Assembly (NCBI GenBank): GCA_018831055.1
Contig: JAHJRE010000221.1
Span: 1 to 34,499, forward strand
DNA length: 34,499 nt
Direction of reading: 5' to 3'
Origin: Bacteroidota bacterium
GTDB lineage: Bacteria > Bacteroidota > Bacteroidia > Bacteroidales > B18-G4
Positions within the stretch are counted from its first letter, which is position 1, and each line of letters begins with the position of its first letter. The translations under genes were made by a program, and so were the position numbers. The notes under the pieces are model-generated. The model was not told the DNA's origin. It saw only the letters and a program-made list of their open reading frames with translations, and did no database searches. Of this stretch, positions 11,460 through 30,179 are shown one piece after another.

Positions 11460-12686
11460 ATGTTTGATCCTAAGCAGATAACACCGGAAACATATAATTA
11501 CCACCTTCCTGAAGACAGGATTGCAAAATATCCCTTGCACGAAAGAGACGGATCAAAACTACTGGTATACCAGGATGGGCAGGTCAGCCATACTTTTTTC
11601 CGCAGCATTGATACTTTTCTGCCTTCGGATTCGCTGGTTGTATTGAACGAAACCCGTGTTGTACATGCCCGGTTGTTATTTCATAAGGAAACCGGAGCGA
11701 AAATAGAGATTTTCTGTCTTGAGCCCATACATCCTGCTGAGGACATGCAACAAGCGTTTTCAGCTTCATCTCCTGTCATCTGGAAGTGTCTGGTTGGCAA
11801 TGCAAAAAAGTGGAAATCAGGATTACTGAAATTATCCTACCCTGCAAACAGGAAGGAACTGAATCTTTTTGCCAGGAAGATGCAATCAATGGGGGAGGCT
11901 TATCATATTGAATTTTCCTGGGATAATCAGGAACTGACATTCAGCGAAGTACTTCAGCGTGCAGGGATGGTCCCCCTCCCACCCTACCTGAACCGTGAAG
12001 CAGAAGACCAGGATGACAGTCGTTATCAGACGGTTTTTGCGAAAAATGAAGGATCAGTGGCAGCACCAACCGCAGGTCTTCATATAACGAATGAGGTCAT
12101 CAAAAAGCTTGAAGCCCGAAACATCACATTCTCAAAGGTTACCCTTCATGTAAGTGCGGGAACTTTCAAGCCGGTAAGTGCATCCAGCATTGCGGAACAT
12201 GAAATGCATTCGGAAAAGATACAGGCAGAAAAGCATTTCCTGGAAACCATGGTAAAACATGGCAACAAACCGGTAATTGCCGTTGGAACCACTACTCTCA
12301 GAACCATAGAAAGCCTTTACTGGCTCGGCTTCAGGTATCTGCGCGAAGGGAAAATTGATAATTTTCACATCGACCAGTGGGAGCCCTACCAACACAAACC
12401 TAAACTGCTTCCTTCCCGAATAGAAGCATATTCAGGATTATTACAATACATGAATAAGGAAAAAACGGAACAAATCTCAGCCAGTACTCAACTTATTATT
12501 GTTCCAGGATACAGGGTGCAGGTAGCGGATATTCTGATCACCAATTTTCACATGCCCAAAAGTACGTTGCTGATGCTGGTTGCGGCTTTTATCGGTAATG
12601 AATGGAAAGATGCATATGAGTATGCATTAAATAACGATTTCAGATTTTTAAGCTATGGGGACGGGTGCCTGTTTTTCAGAAAATAG
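11460..12686 (+). CDS. queA: S-adenosylmethionine:tRNA ribosyltransferase-isomerase
   Basis: A 408-residue enzyme that adds the epoxycyclopentane unit, from the ribose of SAM, to preQ1 in tRNA, the penultimate step of queuosine synthesis. Seen motifs: YHLPEDRIAKYPLHERDGS at the N-terminus, AAPTAGLHIT, HVSAGTFKPV, VGTTTLRTIESL, and ITNFHMPKSTLLMLVAAF near the end. It is about 50 residues longer than the E. coli protein because of spacers around 80-170 and 320-350, as in other Bacteroidota. Its 3' end overlaps the convergent gene at 12653 by 34 bp. Confidence 0.95.
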   Translation: MFDPKQITPETYNYHLPEDRIAKYPLHERDGSKLLVYQDGQVSHTFFRSIDTFLPSDSLVVLNETRVVHARLLFHKETGAKIEIFCLEPIHPAEDMQQAFSASSPVIWKCLVGNAKKWKSGLLKLSYPANRKELNLFARKMQSMGEAYHIEFSWDNQELTFSEVLQRAGMVPLPPYLNREAEDQDDSRYQTVFAKNEGSVAAPTAGLHITNEVIKKLEARNITFSKVTLHVSAGTFKPVSASSIAEHEMHSEKIQAEKHFLETMVKHGNKPVIAVGTTTLRTIESLYWLGFRYLREGKIDNFHIDQWEPYQHKPKLLPSRIEAYSGLLQYMNKEKTEQISASTQLIIVPGYRVQVADILITNFHMPKSTLLMLVAAFIGNEWKDAYEYALNNDFRFLSYGDGCLFFRK

Positions 12687-13657
12687 CCAATTGCTTTTAG
12701 GATATTCAGAGGTCTTTCCATATCACAGACCAATTGTTCACGGGAATACTCTTTCGGGTTAAAAACGCCTCCGGTGCCTTGTTCCAGTCGTTCCAGCTGA
12801 TCCATGCAAACAAAGCAACGGCTGATGGCCAGGATGAATTTTCTGCGAAAAAGAAACAGATTTTCAGCCTTAAAGCCGGCTTCATCACAGGCATTCATTG
12901 CATCCTGAAGTTTATTAATAAAAATCTTTCTTAACCTACTGATTTTCCCGGAAGCGGTCACTGGGGTACGGATGCCCTGCGGGCTGTCTTTCCAAACGTC
13001 AAAAATATCGTTTCCCAGTTGCATCAGACTACCAAGGCGGAACAGTGCATTTTCCTCCGGCACGGTGGCAGGAATTGTGAATGCACTCCGGTAAAACAGC
13101 AAAGAATAACCTCCTTTATCGTAGGTTATTTCCAGGATGTCATCATAGGAAATTCCGGGATCGGTCTGAAGCAAGCTTTTCTGTTGAGCCAGAAACACTT
13201 TATGAAAATAATGATTGAAATACTCGGGTAAGTCAAGGTTTTGGTAAACATTTTTCAGGAATTCAATAAAGAGTTTTTCAAGTGCAGTTTTAGGTATCCA
13301 GGAGTCAGGATGATTCATCATATCCAGGATCTGCTCATCGCTGAGTCCGGTTTTATCAAAGAAATCGTCATAAAGTCCCGTCAAGGCACCCTGGAAGGTA
13401 CTGCATAAACGTTCCCTTTCCGTCATGGGCCGTCCCCTCAGGGTGCAAATGGCCTCCCCAACAATGGCAGGCACTCCAAATCCATAATAATTCAGGATTT
13501 TTTTGAAGTCTTCCTCATCAAGGGATCCATCATTATCACGACGATACCTGTTAATAACAGGTACAACATGAGCATGCAGAAATTTTCGTTGCCGTTTGAC
13601 ATCCTGAAGTAGATATCTGTATGTGTAAATGGCAGGTATTATTCTTGTAAATCCCAT
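12653..13657 (-). CDS. Class I isoprenoid-synthase-like protein
   Basis: A 334-residue, mostly helical protein without signal peptide. Two acidic motifs stand in the right order and spacing for a class I (ionisation-initiated) isoprenoid synthase: LYDDFFDK (D97-D98-x-x-D101) and QLGNDIFDVWKD (N216-D217-x-x-D220, D224), with TYDKGGYS (178-185) between them, as in squalene/phytoene and terpene cyclases. I cannot name the product. It may be a head-to-head prenyl synthase, a terpene cyclase or a non-canonical member. It stands alone, overlapping the queA 3' end and divergent from tatC. Confidence 0.68.
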   Translation of the reverse strand: MGFTRIIPAIYTYRYLLQDVKRQRKFLHAHVVPVINRYRRDNDGSLDEEDFKKILNYYGFGVPAIVGEAICTLRGRPMTERERLCSTFQGALTGLYDDFFDKTGLSDEQILDMMNHPDSWIPKTALEKLFIEFLKNVYQNLDLPEYFNHYFHKVFLAQQKSLLQTDPGISYDDILEITYDKGGYSLLFYRSAFTIPATVPEENALFRLGSLMQLGNDIFDVWKDSPQGIRTPVTASGKISRLRKIFINKLQDAMNACDEAGFKAENLFLFRRKFILAISRCFVCMDQLERLEQGTGGVFNPKEYSREQLVCDMERPLNILKAIGYFLKNRHPSP

Positions 13658-15065: not shown

Positions 15066-15755
15066 ATGAATCAAACACAATACCATTGCAGTGAATGTAA
15101 GATCAAGTCGGATGCAGTAGGCACATTAAAGAGAAAAGACCTTGATTTTCTGAGTCAAAACTGCATGGAAATCACCTTAAGAAGGGGAGAAAGCATCATC
15201 CGTCAGGGAACGGTATCGACACACATTGCCTATTTAAAATCAGGGCTTGCAAAAACCCATATGAGCGGGCCTGCCGGGCGGGATCAGATTTTAAAGATTG
15301 TTACACCCGGATATTATATAGGAATCCAGGCCATCATGTTCGACAAGGTACATCGATATTCCGCATCGGCGCTTAACGAGTCAGTGTATTGCTTAATTGA
15401 TTCAAAATCGTTTATGCATTTAGTCCGTCGCAATCAGGTATTTGCCTATGAAATTGTTAAATATCTGAGCATGGATGAGCTTACCTATTACGACCGGTTT
15501 GTAAATCAGTTACAAAAGCATTTAAACGGACGTCTCGCCGACGCGTTAACCTATTTTTCTCAAATGTATGGAGGAAAAGGGGTTTTCCATTTGCCTGTGA
15601 GCAAGACAGATCTTGCCGGGCTGATAGGTTCTTCCCGTGAGAGCGTGTCAAGAGCATTGAAAGAAATGTCTGAAACGGGGGTCATCCGTGTCGACGGAAG
15701 AAAGATCAGTATATTGAATGTGCAGTTACTTGAAAAGATCAGCCGAAGCGGTTAA
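15066..15755 (+). CDS. Crp/Fnr family transcriptional regulator with N-terminal Cys pair
   Basis: A 229-residue regulator: cyclic-nucleotide-type beta-roll (about 20-125), dimer helix, and C-terminal winged HTH. The recognition helix reads SSRESVSRALKEM, with Arg, Glu and Arg in the positions by which E. coli CRP reads TGTGA, matching the TGTGAT/ATCACA palindrome just upstream. It also has cysteines C8, C11, C33 and C109, reminiscent of FNR, which carries an oxygen-labile 4Fe-4S cluster, though the spacing differs. It converges with the rhodanese end of the Psr operon, so it is the likely local regulator. The effector (oxygen, redox, sulfur or NO) is not known. Confidence 0.87.
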   Translation: MNQTQYHCSECKIKSDAVGTLKRKDLDFLSQNCMEITLRRGESIIRQGTVSTHIAYLKSGLAKTHMSGPAGRDQILKIVTPGYYIGIQAIMFDKVHRYSASALNESVYCLIDSKSFMHLVRRNQVFAYEIVKYLSMDELTYYDRFVNQLQKHLNGRLADALTYFSQMYGGKGVFHLPVSKTDLAGLIGSSRESVSRALKEMSETGVIRVDGRKISILNVQLLEKISRSG

Positions 15756-15763
15756 GAAAAATA

Positions 15764-16396
15764 TCAGCACCCCCCTTCAGCAGCGGTACTTTTCTTTTTT
15801 CTAACCGGCATGATCATTTCAGGTTGGTGGTTATCAGGGCTCTCTCCGGAAGCACTGGTATTGATCTCCAACAAAGATGCAAAATCGAAGGCAGGTTCTT
15901 CCACCAGGTAATTGGGAAGATCTTCAACTGCATAAGGATCAATAAGAATCCCTTTAATATAATCATAACCACCGAGGAGAACTTTCACATTCTCTATTCC
16001 AATTTGCTTCAGAAGCATCCAGGGAAGATTAGCCTGACTTTGGTTATTACCATAAAGGACAATAGTAACTGAATCTTTATCCAGCTTTTGCAGGAAAAGC
16101 AGATTATCCTCCTGAAGAAGAACACTGGAGGGAATATTTACTGCTTTCCTGATATGGCCTTGCAGAAAGTCATAAGGAGTCCGCAGATCGATAAGCTGAT
16201 AACCGGAGGCACTATCTTCGAGGGCATAAACAATATCTTCAGGAAATACTTCGTCTACTAACGATAGGGCATTATCGAGGGCTTCACGGGGTGTCAACTG
16301 ATAACCAATATCTGGTTTCCTTACCGAAAGGATTCCAAGAATGATCAGCAGGATAAAGGCCGCAACGATGATCAATATTTTATTTTTTCCATCCAT
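15764..16396 (-). CDS. Membrane-anchored rhodanese-like protein, catalytic Cys lost, C-terminal GGC tail
   Basis: A 210-residue protein with an N-terminal signal anchor (about 6-24) and one rhodanese domain (YQLIDLRTPYDFLQGHI, AVNIPSSVL, VKVLLGGYDYI). The active-site loop, normally CxxGxR, reads YGNNQSQA, so there is no nucleophile. The protein then has a disordered Ser/Asp/Pro linker and ends RKKKSTAAEGGC. The final residue is its only cysteine. The domain should face the periplasm. It is the last gene of the Psr-type operon, 18 bp after a paralogue with the same tail. Inference: a sulfane-sulfur carrier or scaffold using the tail Cys instead of the lost active site. Confidence 0.85.
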   Translation of the reverse strand: MDGKNKILIIVAAFILLIILGILSVRKPDIGYQLTPREALDNALSLVDEVFPEDIVYALEDSASGYQLIDLRTPYDFLQGHIRKAVNIPSSVLLQEDNLLFLQKLDKDSVTIVLYGNNQSQANLPWMLLKQIGIENVKVLLGGYDYIKGILIDPYAVEDLPNYLVEEPAFDFASLLEINTSASGESPDNHQPEMIMPVRKKKSTAAEGGC

Positions 16397-16414
16397 GGTA
16401 TAAATTGTTTGGGA

Positions 16415-17032
16415 TCAGCAACCGCCTTCGGCGGCTGTACTTTTCTTTTTTCGTGTAATTTCAATCTTTTCAGGTTGGCTGGCAGGAGCCGCATCTATAC
16501 TTCCTCCACCGAAGTATTGTCGTGCAGCCATTCTGAAAGAATACAGTGCAAACGCTTCTTCCGGATCGCTTTGTTTCGGTATTGGGGGTTGGAGTATCGT
16601 AACTGCCCAATGGTTAAGTCCGCCTTTCATCACACGGAGATTTTTAAAGTCTTGCCTTTGAAGCAATATCCAGGCCTGGTCGGCATATATTTCATCGTTT
16701 GAAAAGAATACAATATCGTAATCTTCTGCAGAAAAGTAATCTTCCCATTCGGGATCGAGAATATTTTCCAGGGGAATATTGAGTGCTCCGGGAAGGCTAA
16801 AATCAAGATACTCATCAGGATTTCTTACATCAATCAACAATAGTGCCGGATCCTGTTTGATAATTTTATCAGCAACCAGGTCTGTTGACCAGTAGTGCGA
16901 ATCATCACTAAAGGCCAGCAATAGGTTTTCAGGGCTTATTTCACTTGCGTTATCCGGTTCTTCGAATAAAAACATACCGGCACTCAAGAGAATAGCAAGA
17001 ACCATCAATATCAAATAAATTCTTTTCATCAT
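16415..17032 (-). CDS. Membrane-anchored rhodanese-like protein, catalytic Cys lost, C-terminal GGC tail
   Basis: A 205-residue paralogue of the next gene. An N-terminal anchor (about 4-22) is followed by a rhodanese domain (LLLIDVRNPDEYLDFSLPGALNIP, quoted in part; VMKGGLNHWA). The active-site loop reads FFSNDEIYADQAW, again without Cys. A linker leads to the tail RKKKSTAAEGGC, identical over 12 residues to the neighbour, and the terminal Cys is the only one in the protein. The two tails use different synonymous codons at six of twelve positions, so the peptide and not the DNA is being conserved. It lies 7 bp after the YeeE-like gene. Confidence 0.85.
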   Translation of the reverse strand: MMKRIYLILMVLAILLSAGMFLFEEPDNASEISPENLLLAFSDDSHYWSTDLVADKIIKQDPALLLIDVRNPDEYLDFSLPGALNIPLENILDPEWEDYFSAEDYDIVFFSNDEIYADQAWILLQRQDFKNLRVMKGGLNHWAVTILQPPIPKQSDPEEAFALYSFRMAARQYFGGGSIDAAPASQPEKIEITRKKKSTAAEGGC

Positions 17033-17039
17033 ATTGATT

Positions 17040-17630
17040 TTAATATTCGACTTTTTTAACCCGTTTCTGTATTCTGGCTGTCAGAAAAAACGCAACCAAA
17101 GCGATGATTACCAATAGGAGTACAAACAGGCTGCGGGATATTCCAATAGTTTCATATATCAAGGCGGGTCCAAGGGAACCGCTTTCATAAAGAACATTGA
17201 GCCAGGAAAAGCCTTCGGAAAAAATAAATATTCCGATAAACATCCCAATAGTAAAGAACATGGCATCTATTTTACCAATGGCAGCACCACAGAAGCTGGT
17301 ACCCGGGCAATAGCCTCCCATAATGAAGCCAAGTCCCATCACAGCTCCCCCGATAATGGCGGAGGCCACGAAGGTAGGATTAACAAAAATCATAGATAAA
17401 TCGATCCATCCTGCATAGCTAAAATAGACCAAACCAATGATAGCTGTGATAGCGGCAGTAAAAAACACACGAAGCACTGTAAAATCATACCCATAAAACA
17501 CACCTGCCAGTTTCCTGGAAGATGAAAATCCGGATGATTCCAACACAAAACCAAAGGCCATTCCGATCAGGACGGCAATAACCAGATCCCATTGTGCTCC
17601 AATAATACCTTGAGGAATAAGTGGTCCCAT
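17040..17630 (-). CDS. YeeE/YedE (TsuA-like) sulfur transporter, half 2
   Basis: A 196-residue inner-membrane protein with about six hydrophobic segments. The signature GGYCPGTSFCGAAIGKID contains the conserved Cys/Gly core of the YeeE/YedE (DUF395) family, and an earlier loop reads LESSGFSSSRKLAGVFYG. In the thiosulfate transporter TsuA, conserved cysteines line the substrate path of a single polypeptide holding both halves. Here the halves are separate genes 12 bp apart. The likely role is movement of thiosulfate, sulfide or sulfane sulfur across the inner membrane. It is tightly packed between the other YeeE-like gene and the rhodanese-like gene, so probably translationally coupled. Confidence 0.88.
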   Translation of the reverse strand: MGPLIPQGIIGAQWDLVIAVLIGMAFGFVLESSGFSSSRKLAGVFYGYDFTVLRVFFTAAITAIIGLVYFSYAGWIDLSMIFVNPTFVASAIIGGAVMGLGFIMGGYCPGTSFCGAAIGKIDAMFFTIGMFIGIFIFSEGFSWLNVLYESGSLGPALIYETIGISRSLFVLLLVIIALVAFFLTARIQKRVKKVEY

Positions 17631-17642
17631 ATTATCAAATTA

Positions 17643-18155
17643 TTAAATCCAGAACTTCCTGAAAAAATATGCATATAAATAGCCTGAACCGAAGATAGCA
17701 AGCATAGTGATGAATCCAGCCAGGGAAAGATTTACCATTCCGCTAAGGGCGGCTCCGCTAGTACAACCTCTTCCGAGTTGTGATCCTATCCCGAACATCA
17801 ATCCTCCCAGAGTGGCCATGATGAGGCGGGTTCGGGAAGTGATTTTGGGCGAATGCTCTACTTTAAATGTAAGGCGACCGGCAAGTGCTCCGCTCAGAAA
17901 AGCCCCGGCAAGTACTCCCAGCACCTCAAAAACCAGCCATGTACTCATAGGATGCTTATCATCGCTTATAAAACTACTGTAATAAGCCGAGTTTTGGGCA
18001 TGCTGGCTGGAGACAGAATTTACTACAGCTACCACTGTGCTTTTAACAGCACCACTGGCACCCAGTCCCCTGCCTGTAATATAAAAAGTCAGCAGAAGAA
18101 TGATCCCCAGCAAAATTCCTCCGAGATAGGGGTTGATGTAGTTTTTGGGTTTCAT
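17643..18155 (-). CDS. YeeE/YedE (TsuA-like) sulfur transporter, half 1
   Basis: A 170-residue inner-membrane protein with four or five hydrophobic segments. The diagnostic motif is GIGSQLGRGCTSGAALSGM, with the conserved Cys of the first TsuA half. It starts with a short cytoplasmic MKPKNYINPYLGG. Paired with the next gene it should build the complete pore. A 196-bp gap filled with heptamer repeats separates it from the NrfD-like gene upstream in the same direction, so it may be expressed differently from the reductase genes. Exact substrate not known. Confidence 0.88.
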   Translation of the reverse strand: MKPKNYINPYLGGILLGIILLLTFYITGRGLGASGAVKSTVVAVVNSVSSQHAQNSAYYSSFISDDKHPMSTWLVFEVLGVLAGAFLSGALAGRLTFKVEHSPKITSRTRLIMATLGGLMFGIGSQLGRGCTSGAALSGMVNLSLAGFITMLAIFGSGYLYAYFFRKFWI

Positions 18156-18202: not shown

Positions 18203-18356
18203 TTAGGGATTAGGGATTAGGGGTTAGGGATTAGAATGAAAACTTGTAAAAAAAACCATACTAATCTCATAACCCATACCTCATAATTCATAACTCATAA
18301 CTCATAATTCATAACTCATAATTCATAACTCATAACCCATAACCCATAACCCTAAT
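18203..18356. repeat. Heptamer repeat region between psrC-like and YeeE-like genes
   Basis: Two 7-bp arrays: TTAGGGA-type units (18203-18234) and, after a 31-bp spacer, thirteen CTCATAA/TTCATAA/CCCATAA-type units from 18266 to 18356. The last unit, CCCTAAT, overlaps the TAG stop of the NrfD-like gene and is complementary to the TTAGGG units, so the region can fold back. It sits inside an operon and may attenuate or process the transcript. Confidence 0.88.
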
Positions 18357-19293
18357 AAAGGTACCTCGTTATCTGCCCTGCCTCGACCATTATAAAGCGG
18401 AAAACGAGTCCGCCGAAAATAATAAGTGCGGAAGGTACAGCTACAGGCACTTTAAAACCGGTTAATTCCAACACCTCCAGGATAGCTGGAAAGACCAGTC
18501 CGAGGATAACCACAAACACCCAGAAAGAAACGGTAAACTGTCCTCCCAGGAATAGTTGAGCGGCCTCGATCTGTACCTGTGAACCGGCGAGAAAACCCAT
18601 AATCATATGAGTAATCAGGAACAGTTCCAGGAGTATCAGCATCAGGTCGATTCTGCTCATAATTCTTCTTTCCAGGTGGCTTCTGGATATCCACATAATA
18701 GTTGCTGCCCCTGTTGACAAACCGGAGACGAGGAACAGGGGACCGAGTATTGACGTATTCCACAGAGGTCTCGCATTGAAAGCCGAGAGGAGTATTCCTG
18801 TATAAATCCCGAGAATAACGGAAAGAGACAGAATAAAATACGAGAGATTTTTACGGTTTCTGGCTGTCCAATCGAGAATATCCTGTACTATTTTCAACTT
18901 CCATTTCCAGGAAGGGATGGCATCCTGGATATAGCTTCCGGCCCACAGGAATGAAAGGGGAGTAATGAGCATCAGTACCCAGGCGCCCCAAGACATAGGT
19001 GATTCAAACCTTATGGTTGTATATAGTTGCCAGAAGTACAATTGATGTTTAAGATCATAAAACAGAGCCATAAGGCCGACAGAAAGAATAGCCGGGACAA
19101 GGAATGTAGACCATTTTACGGCCGAAGGCATTTCCTTTTCCTTATCGAGGATAGTATATAATGCGGCAAAAAACATAATTCCTGCGGCAAGCCCTCCAAG
19201 GAATAAGTAAACCGGAATAGGCCAATGCCAAAGGGAAAGATAGGGATCAATTCCCGGGTTCATTCTTCCGCTGATGATAAGCTCTTCATTCAT
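18352..19293 (-). CDS. NrfD/PsrC-type quinol-interacting membrane subunit
   Basis: A 313-residue integral membrane protein with about eight to nine helices, typical for NrfD/PsrC. The start of helix 1 (WHWPIPVYLFLGGLAAGIMF) and SPMSWGAWVLML after the second loop are family signatures. It anchors the ferredoxin and Mo subunits at the periplasmic face and exchanges electrons with menaquinol. It has no heme-binding His pairs expected of cytochrome b subunits. Third gene of the reductase operon, 20 bp after the ferredoxin gene. Its stop codon is embedded in the heptamer array. Confidence 0.92.
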   Translation of the reverse strand: MNEELIISGRMNPGIDPYLSLWHWPIPVYLFLGGLAAGIMFFAALYTILDKEKEMPSAVKWSTFLVPAILSVGLMALFYDLKHQLYFWQLYTTIRFESPMSWGAWVLMLITPLSFLWAGSYIQDAIPSWKWKLKIVQDILDWTARNRKNLSYFILSLSVILGIYTGILLSAFNARPLWNTSILGPLFLVSGLSTGAATIMWISRSHLERRIMSRIDLMLILLELFLITHMIMGFLAGSQVQIEAAQLFLGGQFTVSFWVFVVILGLVFPAILEVLELTGFKVPVAVPSALIIFGGLVFRFIMVEAGQITRYLY

Positions 19294-19313: not shown

Positions 19314-19847
19314 TTACATCAAATAGAATATCTGTGGAGCGGTACCGGCTTCCGGAGCCAGAGCTTTGAATTTTCTGTTTTTCAATGCTCTGGAGACATC
19401 GCTATCGGGATCTTCAAGGTCACCGAAATACATACATTTAGTTGGACAAACGGCTACACATGCAGGCTGCTGTCCCCTTTTCACCAGGTGCTCGCAAAAA
19501 GTACATTTGTCGACATATCCATCGGGATGAGAGTAACGGGCATCATAGGGACAAGATTCGATGCATGCACCGCAACCAATGCATTTATTGGGGGTAACAA
19601 GAACAATTCCTCCTTCCACAATATGACTGGCACCTGTTGGGCAACAACGCACGCAGGGTGCATTATCGCAATGGTTACAGCGCTCCGAGCGAAGCTCCAG
19701 TTCCACATTGGGGTATGACCCGTCGACAGTTTCAGTGATCCAGTCGCGGCAATAACCTATAGGTACATTGTTCTCTGTCTGGCAGGCAACCACACAGTCG
19801 GAACAGCCTACACATTTGCGTGTATCAATAGCCATTGCATATCTCAT
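19314..19847 (-). CDS. 4Fe-4S ferredoxin subunit of the Psr/Phs-type reductase
   Basis: A 177-residue iron-sulfur protein of the DmsB/PsrB type. Four Cys-rich motifs for four 4Fe-4S clusters are visible: CVGCSDCVVAC (from residue 12), CNHCDNAPCVRCCP, CIGCGACIESCP, and CTFCEH with CVAVCP. It has no signal peptide and should be co-exported with the Tat-targeted catalytic subunit. Its ATG overlaps the stop of that gene by 4 bp (ATGA), implying translational coupling and 1:1 stoichiometry. It wires the Mo centre to the NrfD-like subunit. Confidence 0.94.
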   Translation of the reverse strand: MRYAMAIDTRKCVGCSDCVVACQTENNVPIGYCRDWITETVDGSYPNVELELRSERCNHCDNAPCVRCCPTGASHIVEGGIVLVTPNKCIGCGACIESCPYDARYSHPDGYVDKCTFCEHLVKRGQQPACVAVCPTKCMYFGDLEDPDSDVSRALKNRKFKALAPEAGTAPQIFYLM

Positions 19848-22090
19848 AACTTAGCCTCCTTTCCGGGATCTTCAGTAAGGAAAGTAACAAAATTGCTTCT
19901 CATTCCAGTCCCTCCCATCAGCGGGTCGATCTTAATATTTGTTATAAGTCCTGAATCGTTCACACCCTTGCCATAGGCCCGGGTAAGTTTTTTATCGGAA
20001 TGTCCGAATCCGTGGACCATATAGATAGAATCCCAGCGGATTCTTTCCGTCACCCTTACCTTTATTGGGAATTCGGAGACTACTCCGTCCTGGTTTTGCA
20101 ACCAGACTTTATCACCGGTATTAAGGTCCCAAAGCCTGGCAACCTTTGGGTTGACCCAGAGATAATTCTCATCCTGCAGGTCGGTAAGGTTAGGATTATT
20201 TGCCGTACGGCTGAATGTATGAGGAGGTGTCCGGCCATAAATCAGGCGGTAGTAGCCTTGCTGTGGTTGTTCATGTTCGGTATAGACCGGCATCGGATCA
20301 AATCCCTCTGCAGCAAAATCAGTGGCATACAACTCTATCTTACCGGTATTGGTATTAAAAGTCAGGTCTTCCCCAGGAGTAATATACAATGGTCCACTGG
20401 TTCTATCCATTTTTTTGATGCCAATTTGTTGCATCTCCTCCAGGGAGCTTCCGATCTGACGCAGCTGCCAATCGAGTACTTCCGAATAATTTTCATAATT
20501 AAAATAATCGCCAAGACCAAGGCGAATGCCGATTTCACGGGCAATCCACCAGGCCGGTTTGGTTTCATACATTGGCTCAGCGGCAGGCATTCTGAGTGCG
20601 ATATAAGGTTCCCTGGCCGGAGCATCTCTTAGTTCATCATATCTCTCAAGATAGGTGCATTCCGGAAGAACAACATCTGCAAACCCTGTTATTTCCATGG
20701 GCATGGTATCAACTACAGCGATGAAATCAAGGTTATTGAAAGCCTCGAATAATACAGGCATTCCAGGAAGGGTAAGAGGAAGATTGGTTCCTGCCACCAG
20801 CCATCCATGGATTTTATGTTCGCCCATATAACCGGGTACCGAAGCATCAATCAATGCATTGGACACTGAAAGCCTGGCGAACTTGTACTGATCGCCTTGT
20901 ATGTTTTTCCACGACCATTTGGGCTTTGGGAAAGGTGGATGTGGATAATCCGGGACCGAGGGGCTTTCTTTGAAATAAAAACCACCCCTTTGCCCCCATG
21001 AACCCAGGAGAGCATTGAGAATAGCAATCGCCCTGGATCTTTGGGTGTCATCACCATACCAGGTCACATGTCGTCCCGGATGGACGATCACTGCCGGTGA
21101 TGCCTTTGCCATTTCCCAGGCTGTTCTCCGGATTATATCCGGTTCGATGGTTGTGATTCCATAAGCCCATTCCGGGGTCATTTGCTTAACATGTTCTTTT
21201 AGCTGATCAAAACCAAAAGCATATCGTGAAATATAATCTTTATTATAAAGGTCTTCATATATAAGGACGTGAATCCATGCCATCAGCAGGGCCATGTCAG
21301 TAGCGGGCTTGATGGGTATCCAGTATTTCGATTTGCTGGCTGCTGTAGAGAAGCGGGGATCAACGGTAATGATGGTGGCACCATTATCAATGGCATCCGA
21401 CATTTCCTGAACCTGCCCGTTATGCATATTTTCTCCGATATGTGATCCTATCAATACCAGGCATTTGGTATTTCGGATATCGGTAGGCTCGGGAGAACCA
21501 ACGCTGGAACCGAAAGTAGCTTCAAATCCTACCTCACGTGGTCCACGACATTGGGCATAGGATGGGGCGGTAATGTTTGAACTGCCATAAGCTTTAAGCA
21601 AGTGCCCCATATGGTGCCCGGCTGATCCGTGATTGAACAATGCCATGCTTTCAGGGCCGTACTTTTCGGCTATTTCTTTCATTTTCCGGGCAACAAGGTC
21701 CAGTGCTTCTTCCCAGGTCGCTTCCACAAATTCCTGGCTACCATTCCGGTTAACCCTTATTAAAGGCTTCTTTAGCCTGTCAGGATCGTAATACATCCCT
21801 ATCCCGCCTGTACCGCGCGGACATAAACGACCGTTACACAAAGGATCGTTTTCGTTACCAATGATCTTCTGTATGCGGCCCTGCTCATCTGTATATGTCC
21901 ACCCTGCACATTTCCAGAAACAAACCTCGCAATAGGTAGGATAACGGTGGACTGCCTTCAGAGAGGCCTGGGTTCCTTCCTCAGCAGCAAAAAGACCGGA
22001 TTTGTTTAAAACGCCAATAGCACTCCCGGCCAATGCCACCCCTGCTGTCCCCATGGCTGAGATCTTGATGAAACCCCTTCTTGTACTCAT
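19844..22090 (-). CDS. Molybdopterin oxidoreductase catalytic subunit, thiosulfate/polysulfide reductase type
   Basis: A 748-residue periplasmic bis-MGD enzyme. The twin-arginine signal is STRRGFIK (residues 2-9) with an Ala/Gly-rich hydrophobic stretch. The FS0 cluster motif is C54-x2-C57-x3-C61-x28-C90. The likely Mo/W ligand is C181 in SYAQCRGPREVGF, a Cys as in PsrA/PhsA and unlike the Ser of DMSO reductases. The size fits PsrA/PhsA (about 750). With the ferredoxin and NrfD-like subunits it makes a PsrABC-type complex. The sulfur-transporter and rhodanese genes in the same operon favour thiosulfate, polysulfide or sulfur as substrate, but tetrathionate or arsenic oxyanions cannot be excluded from sequence alone. 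Confidence 0.92.
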   Translation of the reverse strand: MSTRRGFIKISAMGTAGVALAGSAIGVLNKSGLFAAEEGTQASLKAVHRYPTYCEVCFWKCAGWTYTDEQGRIQKIIGNENDPLCNGRLCPRGTGGIGMYYDPDRLKKPLIRVNRNGSQEFVEATWEEALDLVARKMKEIAEKYGPESMALFNHGSAGHHMGHLLKAYGSSNITAPSYAQCRGPREVGFEATFGSSVGSPEPTDIRNTKCLVLIGSHIGENMHNGQVQEMSDAIDNGATIITVDPRFSTAASKSKYWIPIKPATDMALLMAWIHVLIYEDLYNKDYISRYAFGFDQLKEHVKQMTPEWAYGITTIEPDIIRRTAWEMAKASPAVIVHPGRHVTWYGDDTQRSRAIAILNALLGSWGQRGGFYFKESPSVPDYPHPPFPKPKWSWKNIQGDQYKFARLSVSNALIDASVPGYMGEHKIHGWLVAGTNLPLTLPGMPVLFEAFNNLDFIAVVDTMPMEITGFADVVLPECTYLERYDELRDAPAREPYIALRMPAAEPMYETKPAWWIAREIGIRLGLGDYFNYENYSEVLDWQLRQIGSSLEEMQQIGIKKMDRTSGPLYITPGEDLTFNTNTGKIELYATDFAAEGFDPMPVYTEHEQPQQGYYRLIYGRTPPHTFSRTANNPNLTDLQDENYLWVNPKVARLWDLNTGDKVWLQNQDGVVSEFPIKVRVTERIRWDSIYMVHGFGHSDKKLTRAYGKGVNDSGLITNIKIDPLMGGTGMRSNFVTFLTEDPGKEAKL

Positions 22091-22436: not shown

Positions 22437-22847
22437 ATGAATAGGGTAGAAAAAAAAGACCGGAGGGCATTTCTGAAAAGTCTGGGTTTAATCATGGTTT
22501 TACCTTTTTTCTATGCCTGGTATTCAGTCATTAAAGTCAAACTGCGGCAGGAAAGCTATGAAACAATCAAAATACCCCTCGGTTCCATTACGGAAGGGAT
22601 CAGTTTCCATAATGAAATAATAATCAGGAAAAAAGGGGACGAAATACGCGTTTTATCATCCCGATGCACCCATCTGGGCTGTAAAATATCTGAATTCCAT
22701 GATGGCAAACTGATTTGTCCCTGCCATGGATCTGTTTACACGACAGACGGAGAAGTAATAAAAGGACCAGCAACCAAACCCCTTCAAAATTTCTCGCACG
22801 ATTTGGATGAAATTGAAGGAGTTTTGATAGTGAAATCAAACAATTAA
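22437..22847 (+). CDS. Rieske 2Fe-2S protein
   Basis: A 136-residue membrane-anchored protein. The N-terminus KKDRRAFLKSLG is a Tat motif followed by a hydrophobic anchor (about 16-30). The Rieske domain has the full bc-type site: C77-T-H79-L-G-C82 and C94-P-C96-H97-G-S, so 2Fe-2S ligands C77, H79, C94, H97 and the stabilising disulfide C82-C96 are all present. It lies 12 bp before a cytochrome b/c fusion gene, together forming a minimal quinol-oxidising bc-like complex. Tat export depends on TatC, encoded at 13820. Confidence 0.94.
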   Translation: MNRVEKKDRRAFLKSLGLIMVLPFFYAWYSVIKVKLRQESYETIKIPLGSITEGISFHNEIIIRKKGDEIRVLSSRCTHLGCKISEFHDGKLICPCHGSVYTTDGEVIKGPATKPLQNFSHDLDEIEGVLIVKSNN

Positions 22848-22859
22848 TCCGGAAAAACC

Positions 22860-25574
22860 TTGAGTTTCCTCAGCAAAATAGAAAAGGGGTTATTGCCCGG
22901 TACTTACGGAACTACTGCAATTGCTTCCCTGCTTATCTGTACAGTATCCGGTATCATCCTGGCCATTCCATACGATGTTGTAAAACCATTCGAATCCATC
23001 CGGCAAATGCTCCTTACCAATCCGGCAGCCGTATTTTTCCGCAATCTTCATTACTGGAGCGCTCAGTTTTTTCTCATCTTTACCATTCTACATTTTTGGG
23101 ATCATTTATATCGCTCAACAGAATACAGGGTAAAGACCGGGGTTTGGTTCAGACTTTGTGTTTCGGTATTTTTCATATTTTTTGTCATGCTTTCGGGTTT
23201 TATTTTAAAAGGAGACCAGGACAGCAGGCAGGCAGCCATGATATTCCGGTCACTCTTTGAAACTATACCTGGCGGTCGATGGGTTGCCTTTGCTCTGCTG
23301 GGCCGCGAAGATTCATTCCAGCTTGTTTATGTCCATCACATCGCTACTGCAACAATATTTATATTTATCATAACCTTTGAACACGCCAGGACAATTTGGA
23401 GTAAAGTGCCCGAATTTCTTGCCGTTTCCGGTGTATTGATCATTTTCTCCTTTCTTTTTCATGCACCTTTGCAAACCCATTCAGGAAATATCGTAAAAGG
23501 CCCCTGGTACTTCCTTGGTTTACAGGAAATACTGCACTTAACTGCCCATCCCTGGATTGTAATGACAGCCTTGTTATTTCTGTTTTTTGTCTTGCTTTTT
23601 CTACCCCGCTTCAGGAAAAATACTTCCTGGAAAATGAAGCATGCATTATTAGGATTGTTTGGCTTCTATATTCTGCTAACGATTAGCGGATATTTTTTCA
23701 GGGGGCCCAACTGGTCGTGGACATGGGATGTAAAGCAGGCCTATTTCCCTTTTCAGCCGGTGGTGATCATACCGGCGGATTATTTTCCCGAGGCCGTTCA
23801 ACCCGGTAAACAGGAAGGATGCTTATTATGCCACATGCCAGTATCGGGTTTTTCTCCTTCTCATGATCCTTCAGCGATAGGTTGTTCTTCCTGCCACCTG
23901 GGCAATCCCTTCACTCCTGATAAACAGGAGGCACACCGTTCCATGGTTCTGATTCCGGGTAACCTGGCACAATCCAGGCAAACCTGTGGCACAGCCGACT
24001 GCCATCCCGACATAACGGAGCGCATGAATAACAACATAATGACCACCCTGAGCGGGATGGTCAGTATAGATCGTTATGTTTTCGGTGAGTCATCCAGCCT
24101 TTCGGATTCCTGCCGAATAACAGACATAGGACACTCCCCTGCCGACATGCATTTAAGGAACTTATGTGCACATTGTCACCTTGGAAATGAAAAAACAGAA
24201 ATTGGTCCTCAAACACAAATCAGCCGTGGAGGAGGATGCAACGCCTGCCATTTGAATTATAGCCATACTGCCCTTCAGGAGCTTTTTGCTTATAACTCAA
24301 CCAGCAAGAAGGATACTTTCCTGATGAAAAACCACCCTTCATTGGATATCCATGTGACAGGCCAACACTGTTTCGGTTGTCATTCAAGGTCTGGAAGGAT
24401 ATCATTGAATTATGAGGGGTGGCAGGAAACCTTGCTTCAGGCAGATGACATCTCCGGGGGGGGAGATGTCATCTGGTACAAAACCTTGGAAGACAACAGA
24501 GTATTAAAATTCATTTCAGAAGACATCCATCACAAAGCAGGGCTGGAGTGTATCGATTGCCATATTTCGTATGAACTTATGGGAGATGGCACTTTCTACC
24601 TGCACAAGGAAGAACAGTTAAAAGTTGCCTGTGAGGATTGTCATTATTCCGGAGCACCAAGGGTTGTTGCAAATATTGATGCAGAAAGTCAGAAGATTAT
24701 GCAACTCAGAGGGTGGGAATCCGGTTCCTGGACCATGCTTCTTTCGAAGAGTGGCTATCCGATGGTAAATACAAGGATAGATGCAGATGGAAATTCTTAC
24801 CTTATTCTGAAGAACTCTGGAAATATCTTACCCCTCAGCCCACCTGCCCAGGTCTGTAAAGAAGGGAAAGGCCATCAAAGACTTTCCTGTAGCAGTTGCC
24901 ATACCGCCTGGGTACCTCAATGCATTGGGTGCCATAATGAATATGATCGTTTCGCTGATGGTTATGACCTTCTGGAGAATACACCCATCACTGGCACATG
25001 GGTGGAGTATGTTGCAAAGTTTACTGCAGGACCTCCCATATTGGGTGTCCGTGAAACAGGAGCTTCTTCAGGAAATATTGATCCAAACCGTGAAGAAATC
25101 GTATGCTTCACTCCGGGAATGATATTGAGCATTAAACCCATGGAAAATGATGGCAGGTTTACAGAAAATATTTTTCACAGACTTTTTGCCCCAACTGAGG
25201 CCCATACAACTCAGGCCGTAGGCAGGGATTGTAAAGGCTGCCATCTGGATCCTTTGGTACTGGGCTTTGGAAGCGGAGTCCTGGAATATATTATTGAAGA
25301 TAACCATGGAAAGTGGAATTTCACACCTTCTTACGCCGACAATCCTTACGACGGATTACCCGAAGATGCCTGGACTGGATTCCTGGAAGAGAGGAAAGGG
25401 CAAAGTGCAACAAGGTATCATCACCGCCCTTTTAGCCTCGCAGAGCAAAAAAGGTTGCTTCTGGCAGGTTCATGTTTGCATTGCCATGCGCCTTCAAGCC
25501 AGGTTATGAAAGAAGCGCTGGAGGACTTTGATGGAACGATGAAACGGTTGGGGAAGGGATGTGTGGTGCCGTGA
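22860..25574 (+). CDS. Cytochrome b6-like domain fused to a dodecaheme cytochrome c
   Basis: A 904-residue fusion. Residues 1-285 hold a cytochrome b6-type membrane domain: heme ligands H64/H78 and H160/H175 (13 and 14 residues between, as in cytochrome b6), and a Qo-like motif GPWYFLGLQE where bc complexes have PEWY. Residues 300-904 are periplasmic with twelve heme c sites: CxxCH at C321, C342, C436, C460, C504, C564, C591, C677, C688, C791, C872, and one CX4CH (CGTADCH, C376). The start is TTG, 12 bp after the Rieske stop, because no suitable ATG lies near. It contains an 8-G tract within a 14-bp inverted repeat (24442-24475). Its stop lies in a repeat array. Confidence 0.92.
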   Translation: MSFLSKIEKGLLPGTYGTTAIASLLICTVSGIILAIPYDVVKPFESIRQMLLTNPAAVFFRNLHYWSAQFFLIFTILHFWDHLYRSTEYRVKTGVWFRLCVSVFFIFFVMLSGFILKGDQDSRQAAMIFRSLFETIPGGRWVAFALLGREDSFQLVYVHHIATATIFIFIITFEHARTIWSKVPEFLAVSGVLIIFSFLFHAPLQTHSGNIVKGPWYFLGLQEILHLTAHPWIVMTALLFLFFVLLFLPRFRKNTSWKMKHALLGLFGFYILLTISGYFFRGPNWSWTWDVKQAYFPFQPVVIIPADYFPEAVQPGKQEGCLLCHMPVSGFSPSHDPSAIGCSSCHLGNPFTPDKQEAHRSMVLIPGNLAQSRQTCGTADCHPDITERMNNNIMTTLSGMVSIDRYVFGESSSLSDSCRITDIGHSPADMHLRNLCAHCHLGNEKTEIGPQTQISRGGGCNACHLNYSHTALQELFAYNSTSKKDTFLMKNHPSLDIHVTGQHCFGCHSRSGRISLNYEGWQETLLQADDISGGGDVIWYKTLEDNRVLKFISEDIHHKAGLECIDCHISYELMGDGTFYLHKEEQLKVACEDCHYSGAPRVVANIDAESQKIMQLRGWESGSWTMLLSKSGYPMVNTRIDADGNSYLILKNSGNILPLSPPAQVCKEGKGHQRLSCSSCHTAWVPQCIGCHNEYDRFADGYDLLENTPITGTWVEYVAKFTAGPPILGVRETGASSGNIDPNREEIVCFTPGMILSIKPMENDGRFTENIFHRLFAPTEAHTTQAVGRDCKGCHLDPLVLGFGSGVLEYIIEDNHGKWNFTPSYADNPYDGLPEDAWTGFLEERKGQSATRYHHRPFSLAEQKRLLLAGSCLHCHAPSSQVMKEALEDFDGTMKRLGKGCVVP
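24442..24475 (+). repeat. Intragenic hairpin with 8-G tract in the cytochrome gene
   Basis: Arms CAGATGACATCTCC (24442-24455) and GGAGATGTCATCTG (24462-24475) pair perfectly over 14 bp around six G. Together with the adjacent arm bases there is a run of eight G (24456-24463). It encodes the residues ADDISGGGDVIW between hemes 6 and 7. Such a tract could slip, and the hairpin could pause translation. Confidence 0.9.
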
Positions 25575-27027: not shown

Positions 27028-27894
27028 CTAATTTTTGGTTATTGGGTTATTCCCGGCTACCCATTCAACATAGGATCCATCATAAACCTTTACGTTGGGG
27101 TATTCCAAGACAGAGTTCAGTGCTGTGTAAACCACGGCAGCCCATATTCCTGTATTGCAGTAAACTATTATTTCCTTGTCTTTTGCTACTCCCTTGGAAG
27201 AAACAATTTGTTTAATTTGCTCAGCTGATTTATAGGCTCCCTTATCCGTTAACAAATCAGTATAGGGAATATTAACAGCACCTTCGATATGTCCCTTGCT
27301 TTCGCCTTTTTCATCCACGCCTTTGAATTGCTCAATGCTTCTGGCGTCGATAATAATGGTTCCGGAATTTTTTTGTTTTGCTTTCACATCTGCCATGGAA
27401 ACATAAATTGCACTATTAACCTTTGGGGTAAAAGTAACAGCAGCAGGTTTGGTAGCTGCACGGGTAACGGGTATCCTGGCAACCTTCCATTGATCCATGT
27501 CTTTGTGAAGGATTTTCACATCACTGGCACCCAAATACTTAAGTATCCAATAAACCCTGCTGGAATATTTGTTTGAGCCGTCATCGTAAATAACAATAGA
27601 TTTATCGGCGCTAACGCCATTGCTTCCAAAGATTTTTGCCAGATCTTCGGGGCTCTTGATCAATCCTTTAACATCACCGGGTTTATATAAGTCCTGGTGA
27701 GGTATGTTGACAGCACCCTGAACGTGAACTTTGGCGTAGTTTTCCGCAGTGTTCACATCAATCACCACGAGGTTCTTGTTGGATTTCAAGGCTTCACCAA
27801 AAGCTTTGGCTGAAATAAGATCGGCAGCTTGTACTTTTATCACACTAATCAATGCTATTGCCGAAAATAAGATTACTTTCTGAAAAGTCTTCAT
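27028..27894 (-). CDS. Periplasmic tandem-rhodanese sulfurtransferase
   Basis: A 288-residue protein with a Sec signal (1-23) and two rhodanese domains. The first domain is structural, its loop reading YDDGSNKYSSR without Cys. The second carries the catalytic C246 in IVYCNTGIWAAV, the only cysteine in the protein. This is the classic thiosulfate/3-mercaptopyruvate sulfurtransferase layout (SseA/rhodanese), which moves sulfane sulfur to a thiol or cyanide acceptor. The export signal places it in the periplasm. It is the last gene of the lipoprotein-porin-rhodanese cluster, 21 bp after the porin gene, and is terminated at 26954-26983. Confidence 0.9.
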   Translation of the reverse strand: MKTFQKVILFSAIALISVIKVQAADLISAKAFGEALKSNKNLVVIDVNTAENYAKVHVQGAVNIPHQDLYKPGDVKGLIKSPEDLAKIFGSNGVSADKSIVIYDDGSNKYSSRVYWILKYLGASDVKILHKDMDQWKVARIPVTRAATKPAAVTFTPKVNSAIYVSMADVKAKQKNSGTIIIDARSIEQFKGVDEKGESKGHIEGAVNIPYTDLLTDKGAYKSAEQIKQIVSSKGVAKDKEIIVYCNTGIWAAVVYTALNSVLEYPNVKVYDGSYVEWVAGNNPITKN

Positions 27895-29146: not shown

Positions 29147-30136
29147 TTACGGTACTACCGGATAGTCGGTACCTGGCATGTGCCACTTGGTCGGACCATC
29201 GGCGAGATTCGAATAAATCATGCCATTGGTTCCAAAAGTCAGACTCTTCGCATCATATCCCATAATTGTCAGGTATGCAGTAACAATGGATGATGTCTGT
29301 CCTGTCCAGCAATACGTTACAACGGTTTTGCTTGCATCAAGGTGCTTGAATTCGTTGTTCTCCAGGGTAAGGGGAAGAATACGGTAAGCACCGGTGATGT
29401 TTCCGTAGGTTTCAACATCTGTAGTTTTCCAGTAATTATTTATGAAATAATTCGAAGGAGTTCCCAGGACATCAGTATTAGCAACAGTTTTAAATCCCTG
29501 GCTCAGCATATAATTAACCCTTTCTGTAAGGATTTCAGGACCGGTAGTATACAAGCTGGTGAAGGTAGGAGCGGAAAAATCAGCACTTGGAGTGATGCTT
29601 CCGGGAGCGGCAACCCAGTTCGGGTTTGTCAGGGCAATGTCACCAGTTTTCGTTTCCCAGGCAGCTGAGAACTGGCTGTTCCATCCTGCCATACCCCACT
29701 TAAGAGCTTTGGCATCCATATGACCGCTCAGGCGAAGGGCAACAACAGCGTGACAAGCTGTTTGTCCTGTATAACATACCACAACAATCGGCTTGGTAGC
29801 TCCCTGAACCGTTGTAAGTATCTCACCCAAAGTAGATCTTACAGCGCCATCAATATGTGCAGTATTGAAATCAGCCTCCTGACGGATGTCAACGATAAAA
29901 TAATCTCCGGTACCCTTGGCATTAATAGCATCAGCCGTAATAACAAAACCACCATTTGCGGCTGTAATGTCATCCAGGTCCATATTATTCTGAACAAGGT
30001 AGGTCTTCAGAACTTCATATGCATTTACCTGAGGCTGACTGCCACCATTGTCATCATCATCACTCTTATTACAGCTTACAAAAGTAAGAGCCGGAACAAG
30101 CATGAAAACGAACAATAATTTAATTAACTTTTTCAT
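29147..30136 (-). CDS. Lipoprotein with two rhodanese domains
   Basis: A 329-residue lipoprotein. The signal ends in a lipobox LTFVSC with C22, followed by a run of Asp (SDDDDNGG), a sorting context common in Bacteroidota lipoproteins. Two rhodanese-type domains keep catalytic cysteines: C121 in VVVCYTGQTAC and C276 in VTYCWTGQTSS, both with the CxTGQT loop. It could handle sulfane sulfur at the cell envelope. The frame opens upstream to GTG 30175, but the -7 element at 30180-30187 and the signal peptide support the ATG at 30136. First gene of the cluster with the porin and periplasmic rhodanese. Confidence 0.88.
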   Translation of the reverse strand: MKKLIKLLFVFMLVPALTFVSCNKSDDDDNGGSQPQVNAYEVLKTYLVQNNMDLDDITAANGGFVITADAINAKGTGDYFIVDIRQEADFNTAHIDGAVRSTLGEILTTVQGATKPIVVVCYTGQTACHAVVALRLSGHMDAKALKWGMAGWNSQFSAAWETKTGDIALTNPNWVAAPGSITPSADFSAPTFTSLYTTGPEILTERVNYMLSQGFKTVANTDVLGTPSNYFINNYWKTTDVETYGNITGAYRILPLTLENNEFKHLDASKTVVTYCWTGQTSSIVTAYLTIMGYDAKSLTFGTNGMIYSNLADGPTKWHMPGTDYPVVP

Positions 30137-30179
30137 GTTACAGTTTTTAGTTAGATAAGTTGTTATTTCTTTCACAAGT

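Follow-up and report, generated by a model that had tools for sequence, protein, structure and literature searches.

Why do two neighbouring rhodaneses that have lost the catalytic cysteine end in one and the same peptide, and why is the last residue of that peptide the only cysteine in either protein? The question is raised by two genes, rhd1 and rhd2, in the window, as we call the whole stretch of 34,499 nucleotides that was analysed. The features concerned are the following:

15764-16396, minus strand: Rhd2, 210 aa, architecture as in Rhd1
16415-17032, minus strand: Rhd1, 205 aa, with an N-terminal membrane helix, a rhodanese domain and a flexible C-terminal arm
15764-15802, minus strand: tail RKKKSTAAEGGC of Rhd2 and its stop codon (sequence)
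16415-16453, minus strand: tail RKKKSTAAEGGC of Rhd1 and its stop codon (sequence)
16049-16051, minus strand: codon GGT of Gly116 of Rhd2, at the position of the catalytic Cys (alignment)
16700-16702, minus strand: codon TCA of Ser111 of Rhd1, at the position of the catalytic Cys (alignment)

Two rhodaneses without a catalytic cysteine

Both Rhd1 and Rhd2 terminate in RKKKSTAAEGGC, and the sole Cys of each protein is its final residue. This identical 12-residue end had been pointed out in the first-pass annotation of the locus, and the ORFs confirmed it. Six of the twelve tail codons, compared by eye between Rhd1 and Rhd2, are synonymously different (AGA/CGA, ACC/ACA, GCT/GCC twice, GGG/GGC and GGG/GGT), again as annotated.

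The rhodanese domain (Pfam PF00581) was detected with 57.8 bits in Rhd1 and 50.9 bits in Rhd2 at a cut-off of 22.2, and this profile, together with Foldseek matches to solved rhodaneses, places both proteins in the rhodanese superfamily. In an alignment with a relative that has the loop YCKKG, the catalytic Cys lines up with Ser of Rhd1 and with Gly of Rhd2, so neither protein has the active-site loop Cys by which a catalytic rhodanese (thiosulfate sulfurtransferase) is recognised. AlphaFold models of Rhd1 and Rhd2 were built from alignments of 47 and 34 rows, respectively. Their overall mean pLDDT is 87.4 and 81.9, with confident cores and N-terminal helices at residues 2-22 of Rhd1 and 3-24 of Rhd2. 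The tail blocks are disordered in both models (mean pLDDT 47-64), and the terminal thiol lies 30 residues (Rhd1) or 26 residues (Rhd2) beyond the last modelled helix. The architecture proposed earlier, an N-terminal anchor, a rhodanese domain lacking the loop Cys and a flexible tail, is thus backed by the modelled helices, by Pfam and by the alignment. Three of the six rhodanese proteins of the source genome carry the tail.

The operon and its neighbours

The genes next to the pair were assigned as follows:

15066-15755, plus strand: CRP/FNR-type regulator (Pfam), adjoining the operon end
17040-17630, minus strand: YeeE-A half transporter (PF04143)
17643-18155, minus strand: YeeE-B half transporter (PF04143)
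18352-19293, minus strand: PsrC, NrfD-type membrane subunit (Pfam)
19314-19847, minus strand: PsrB, iron-sulfur subunit (Pfam)
19844-22090, minus strand: PsrA, molybdopterin subunit (Pfam), with a twin-arginine-like leader by eye

The gene order is PsrA-PsrB-PsrC-YeeE-B-YeeE-A-Rhd1-Rhd2, and the Rhd pair closes the operon. The Mo, FeS and NrfD subunits recognised by Pfam, together with the match of PsrA to the structure 2vpw, assign the first three genes to the PsrABC/PhsABC type. Among solved structures, 2vpw, which was deposited as a thiosulfate reductase and which we take to be from Thermus thermophilus, is the closest to PsrA (E 1.7e-203). As PsrA reached 471.7 of the 694 bits of the PhsA equivalog NF012032 and so stays below the curated cut-off, no substrate was assigned to it. 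The YeeE halves belong to the YeeE/YedE family (PF04143, 56 and 79.7 bits, cut-off 27); they are half-length proteins that score at most 36.2 of the 400 bits of the TsuA thiosulfate transporter equivalogs, which places them outside that group. Each half has one invariant Cys, namely Cys108 of YeeE-A (Cys in 66/66 cluster members of the loci described below) and Cys131 of YeeE-B (65/65). The CRP/FNR-type regulator may be the controller of this sulfur operon.

Further genes of the window were noted. Divergent from psrA, positions 22437-25574 of the plus strand encode a Rieske-type protein and another of 904 aa that includes a cytochrome b part and resembles ExtM of a selenite/tellurite operon. 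Two tandem rhodaneses are encoded on the minus strand: one at 27028-27894, which does not appear in the set of ORFs of the source genome that end in GGC, and one at 29147-30175, which is lipoprotein-like by eye and has a loop Cys and no GGC tail. Homologues of the latter form the third operon gene in six loci, where they have a tail of the Rhd1/Rhd2 type. A 334-aa ORF at 12653-13657 (minus strand) has no Pfam match.

Relatives keep the terminal cysteine

Tailed pairs were present in four of the eight other genomes of the same family that were searched. Named genomes were scanned as well: a single sequence gave no match there, and a five-row alignment gave 69 loci, at least four of which (L037, L038, L039 and L062) are, to judge from their length and position, contigs already in the same-family sample. 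The labels of these loci are mostly Bacteroidales, Bacteroidetes or Chlorobiota and include Draconibacterium, Maribellus, Mariniphaga, Ancylomarina and Lutibacter. The 1159 ORFs of the 69 loci and the window (70 loci) were then clustered.

The rhodanese cluster is represented in all 70 loci, YeeE-A in 66, YeeE-B in 65, PsrC in 62, PsrA in 55 and PsrB in 52. YeeE-B, YeeE-A and a rhodanese occur together in 65 loci, 62 of which have PsrC too, and the full set of six partners was called in 47. The first-pass annotation had offered the co-occurrence of the tail with YeeE and PsrABC for checking. In five loci the two YeeE halves are not both present. Four of these (L063, L072, L088 and L093) begin at or just before rhd1, and the fifth, L077, has an Rhd pair with neither Psr nor YeeE nearby. 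A single clustered Rhd copy was seen in 14 of the 70 loci, in one of them (L078) at a contig end.

A GGC end was found in 124 of the 127 members of the rhodanese cluster. Two of the misses, the copy in L078 and Rhd2 of L082, run to the contig end. The third, Rhd2 of L067 (10491-11123), is a real exception: it is a complete ORF, and no terminal Cys tail was found in it or in other frames nearby. The catalytic position of the 127 members is occupied by Ser (65), Gly (41), Ala (6), His (6), Tyr (5), Cys (3) or Asp (1), so that the catalytic Cys is absent from 124. In 51 of the 124 tailed relatives there is no Cys besides the terminal one, so having a single Cys characterises the window and not the family as a whole. 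The net charge of the tails averages +3.7 versus 0.6 for other ORFs, with a minimum of -1, so not all tails are basic.

Other sulfur-related genes also accompany some of these loci. Proteins of the DsrC/TusE-like, DsrE-like, pyridine nucleotide-disulfide oxidoreductase and DUF1641 kinds are encoded at 1788-3909 of L102 and 13305-14063 of L069, and their clusters occur in 14, 13, 11 and 10 of the 70 loci, respectively.

Proteins that carry the tail

Outside the main rhodanese cluster, 11 of 1032 ORFs end in GGC, and the remaining 1021 do not. No other operon protein of the 70 loci ends in GGC. The first-pass annotation had asked whether unrelated proteins bear the tail; the 11 turned out to be rhodaneses too, of other architectures and, by eye, with the active-site Cys kept in at least one domain.

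Five genomes, the source genome and four isolates, were scanned for the tail with TAA and TGA stops only. The source genome has 23 GGNGGNTGYTRA sites versus 16 for the reversed-pattern control. Three ORFs of at least 150 aa, a limit chosen after the list had been viewed, end at such a site, and all three are rhodaneses; the next longest frame has 130 aa (L034) and lacks Met. The four isolates have 138 sites versus 153 for the reversed control, and their seven distinct ORFs of at least 150 aa are again all rhodaneses, the shorter frames being of 61-92 aa, besides two cut copies of Rhd1. A chance origin of the tail is ruled out by these genome scans, in which the long GGC-ending ORFs are rhodaneses without exception.

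A fixed end motif on predicted extracytoplasmic proteins might also be taken for a C-terminal sorting or lipidation signal. Such a signal would be expected on unrelated proteins, yet the tail was seen on rhodaneses only, and the N-terminal helix of Rhd1 and Rhd2 already looks like a membrane anchor. We regard this explanation as barely credible.

One tailed rhodanese of the source genome (L003, contig C7, 1486-2004) is lipoprotein-like and combines the loop CKKGKRS with a KKESGGC tail of its own; similar ones are found in L043, L048 and Ancylomarina L114. Since some rhodaneses have both the tail and the active-site Cys, it would be too simple to regard the tail as replacing the pocket Cys. The description of the tailed proteins as catalytically dead suits the 124 of 127 cluster members that lack the catalytic Cys, but does not extend to every rhodanese with a tail. 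The active lipoprotein-like rhodanese had matches in 10 other genomes of 296, and no tail was found in the five that were read.

Linkage to YeeE and to reductases across the phylum

One phylum (395 genomes) was searched with a full-length profile, tail included, and 49 of the genomes had a match at E 1e-20. Of 51 matches, 50 were read, and every one had a Cys within the last two residues, the ends being GGC (25), EGC (18), GGCG (2), GGCT, GGCA, DGC, MGC and QC. The Cys is retained where the Gly residues of the tail vary (EGC, DGC, MGC, QC). One residue follows the Cys (GGCG, GGCT, GGCA or GGCS) in L317, L326, L327, L328, L367 and L368.

Since the tail itself could have steered the matches to this profile, a second search used the core alone, the last 39-40 residues having been cut from each of 23 rows. 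It found 71 of the 395 genomes at E 1e-12, and 76 stretches were read; among these, Rhd1 of genome G146 is counted twice (L377 and L256), and the Rhd2 match of the window was left out of the re-read. Rhd2 of G146 is likewise GGC-ending. A stretch was called YeeE-linked if a YeeE-A match lay in the same ORF or within the roughly 1-1.5 kb of DNA retrieved around the match, which gave 65 linked and 11 unlinked stretches. A Cys was present in the last two residues in 64 of the 65 linked stretches versus 1 of the 11 unlinked ones (Fisher p 1.3e-10, a descriptive value, as the genomes are related and the rows not independent). The exception among the linked stretches, L363, has a broken ORF with the tail downstream in another frame. 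The catalytic residue of the linked stretches is Ser (24), Ala (23), Gly (15), Cys (2) or Asp (1), and nine of the 11 unlinked stretches have the catalytic Cys. Relatives without the terminal Cys, or with a Cys kept in the loop, had been named in the first-pass annotation as evidence against a carrier. In the event, the terminal Cys is kept in the main, Rhd2 of L067 being the exception, and the loop Cys is lost in nearly all (present in 3/127 and 2/65).

In 33 of the 65 linked stretches the rhodanese is fused to YeeE-A in the same ORF. The helix between the two parts corresponds to the N-terminal helix of Rhd1 and is preceded by a basic, presumably cytoplasmic segment, which would place the rhodanese outside. 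Two neighbouring proteins that have one Cys each and the same tail could be joined by a disulfide between their terminal Cys residues, or be bound in this way to a partner, the bond acting as a redox-controlled tether. We give this little weight, in view of the 14 loci with one clustered copy and of the YeeE-A fusions, which bear one arm; a disulfide between the terminal Cys and some other partner may nevertheless form.

Twenty of the stretches were longer. PsrA lies upstream in ten of them, including L305, which has a fusion. The other ten encode a 519-547-aa protein with eight CxxCH motifs; here a fusion was called in nine, and in L311, where the blast labels missed it, a frame ends in KKIQGGC. 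Two of these cytochromes were scanned and belong to the tetrathionate reductase family of octaheme cytochromes (TIGR04315, 568 and 590 bits, cut-off 375), and one protein next to an octaheme cytochrome was cytochrome b561-like. The reductase context also bears on what the Cys might bind. The ExtM-like cytochrome divergent from psrA, and selenium transporters among the weak YeeE matches, would suit a system that handles metal, selenium or tellurium species instead of sulfur. This seems very improbable: the ExtM score of 238 bits is far under the cut-off of 800, the ExtM-like cytochrome cluster and the Rieske-type cluster each occur in 12 of the 70 loci, PsrA is closest to 2vpw, and the alternative context has the tetrathionate reductase family cytochrome.

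The single unlinked stretch with a terminal Cys lies beside PsrBC-like genes in G308 (L257; 99% complete), a genome with two tailed rhodaneses and, by eye, PsrB- and PsrC-like ORFs. Neither the YeeE-A search nor PF04143 found a YeeE in G308. As this genome keeps the arms without YeeE, YeeE is not an obligatory partner, and the common factor of the arms is a reductase of sulfur compounds, usually together with YeeE. The partner had been sought in YeeE or in the Mo enzyme. This choice is now narrowed, with both kept as candidates, by the YeeE-A fusions (33/65) and by the arms beside PsrBC-like genes in YeeE-less G308. Among plasmids, two partial matches covered the YeeE part only.

Evolution of the tail

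Of 54 pairs of paralogues, 39 were kept after loci with Rhd1 at least 80% identical had been dropped. At tail positions -12 to -4, that is, without GGC, identity between Rhd1 and Rhd2 is 0.775 within a genome versus 0.436 between genomes, and none of 20000 permutations was as high, although the genomes are related and the permutations therefore not independent. Positions -21 to -13 match too (0.376 versus 0.176, 0/20000), and at -30 to -22 the match is weak (0.160 versus 0.104, 18/20000). The core identity is 0.249 within and 0.219 between genomes.

Among matching tail residues, 175 of 388 codons are identical, and 178.0 are expected from codon usage. In the core tree, the 39 R1 and 39 R2 sequences are fully separated with support 1.0, and the R1 of the same genome is never the nearest tip to an R2. 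The duplication that separates Rhd1 from Rhd2 is old. Recent gene conversion of the tails is ruled out by the chance-level codon matches and the complete R1/R2 separation, and the same two results uphold the earlier proposal that the tail is held by selection and not by recent copying. Ancient gene conversion may have occurred.

The within-genome match reaches well beyond the Cys, the tails are mostly basic, and a third gene of another rhodanese architecture has the same tail in six loci. All this would suit a tag by which the protein docks onto one partner or is assembled with it, with the Cys as a structural contact and no sulfur carried. We consider such a tag unlikely, given that the Cys stays where the Gly residues change and that the tail was seen on rhodaneses only in the five genomes scanned, the other operon proteins being without it.

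Proposed mechanism

Rhd1 and Rhd2 are probably membrane-tethered periplasmic sulfur carriers whose nucleophile has left the pocket for a swinging arm like that of SoxY, and which serve the reductase and YeeE. The rhodanese domain, its catalytic Cys lost, would act as a docking head, and a flexible arm, in most cases basic, would bear the working thiol at its tip. From the tethered head, the terminal Cys would visit the reductase and the mouth of YeeE. It could exchange sulfane sulfur (as a persulfide) or a thiosulfonate with a periplasmic reductase, PsrABC here and the tetrathionate reductase family octaheme cytochrome elsewhere, and the arm could hand the sulfur to the YeeE channel with its one invariant Cys per half. 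We infer the periplasmic side, the loading with sulfur, the direction of transfer and the identity of the group carried; for the location, the periplasm is indicated by the positive-inside rule and by PsrA, which has a Tat-like leader (each judged by eye). Tailed rhodaneses that have an active-site Cys may, speculatively, charge the other carriers.

The observation from which this work started is correct, and its spread is much wider than first reported. The dead-rhodanese GGC arm is a real, conserved design that would add to the known swinging-arm sulfur carriers. No such tail is described in titles or the starts of abstracts of the open-licence literature, among the matches listed. A more tentative proposal, which we put forward as a possibility, is that such carriers act throughout the phylum, with the nucleophile on a GGC arm converging on SoxY, and that protein-bound sulfur passes directly from a periplasmic reductase into YeeE, which would couple sulfur respiration to sulfur import with no free sulfur in between. 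Sulfur import is called poorly understood in the available part of PMC11582611. The arm touches two points, namely how YeeE receives its substrate on the outer side and how reactive sulfane sulfur is delivered to a Psr-type reductase. With a conserved candidate carrier, in many cases fused to YeeE, both questions become testable through one Cys mutation. If Rhd1 and Rhd2 are such carriers, they would provide a clear example of a nucleophile relocated out of an enzyme pocket onto a swinging arm.

Comparison with known systems

The Rhd1 profile matched 1qxn (E 1.4e-4), which is listed as a sulfide dehydrogenase and which we take to be Sud, the polysulfide-sulfur transferase of Wolinella. Sud is a rhodanese that serves a Psr-type reductase and carries sulfur on a Cys in the rhodanese loop. 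At this loop position Rhd1 has Ser and Rhd2 has Gly, so they differ from Sud; the Rhd genes lie in one operon with Psr genes, and their products may serve the reductase. DsrC/TusE proteins have a C-terminal arm with a near-terminal Cys. This likeness is visible in the ends of DsrC/TusE-like proteins of the loci, and such genes occur in 14 of the 70. DsrC/TusE form the family PF04358, whereas Rhd1 and Rhd2 match PF00581 and have no PF04358 match.

The transporter YeeE/TsuA is paired, and in some species fused, with the small sulfur-handling protein YeeD/TsuB (PMC11073785, in the part available), and YeeD is cytoplasmic and TusA-like (PMC11582611, likewise in part). Here, in contrast, the partner is a predicted periplasmic rhodanese, and YeeE is split in two halves. 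The YeeE-like importers SoxT1A and SoxT1B are believed to take up sulfur whose path begins on a carrier in the periplasm, but the carrier proposed there is SoxYZ; a route on which sulfur leaves the SoxY Cys and moves along the cysteine residues of a YeeE-like channel has been considered (both from the accessible text of PMC11582611). Divergent soxY genes stand beside the octaheme tetrathionate reductase gene otr and beside YeeE/D, according to the part of PMC11237559 at hand.

SoxYZ carries sulfur intermediates on a swinging-arm Cys, and a C151E mutagenesis primer implies the end TVGGCG for SoxY of P. pantotrophus (PMC5336275, in the part available). Together with the considered route into a YeeE-like channel and the soxY neighbourhoods, this lends the SoxY-like reading indirect support from the literature. 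No SoxY family match was found in Rhd1 or Rhd2 with Pfam or NCBIfam at E up to 0.001, and no Sox proteins were recognised among the neighbours scanned, which covered few of the rarer ones. The head differs from SoxY, being a rhodanese domain with a membrane helix. The likeness lies in a Cys near the C-terminus after two Gly residues, GGC in Rhd1 and Rhd2 and GGCG in L317 and L328. The first-pass annotation had proposed a swinging-arm carrier by analogy with DsrC/TusE. The arm itself gains from the kept terminal Cys and the mostly lost loop Cys, but the analogy gives way: by the primer-implied GGCG end in the available part of PMC5336275 and the two GGCG relatives, SoxY is the closer model.
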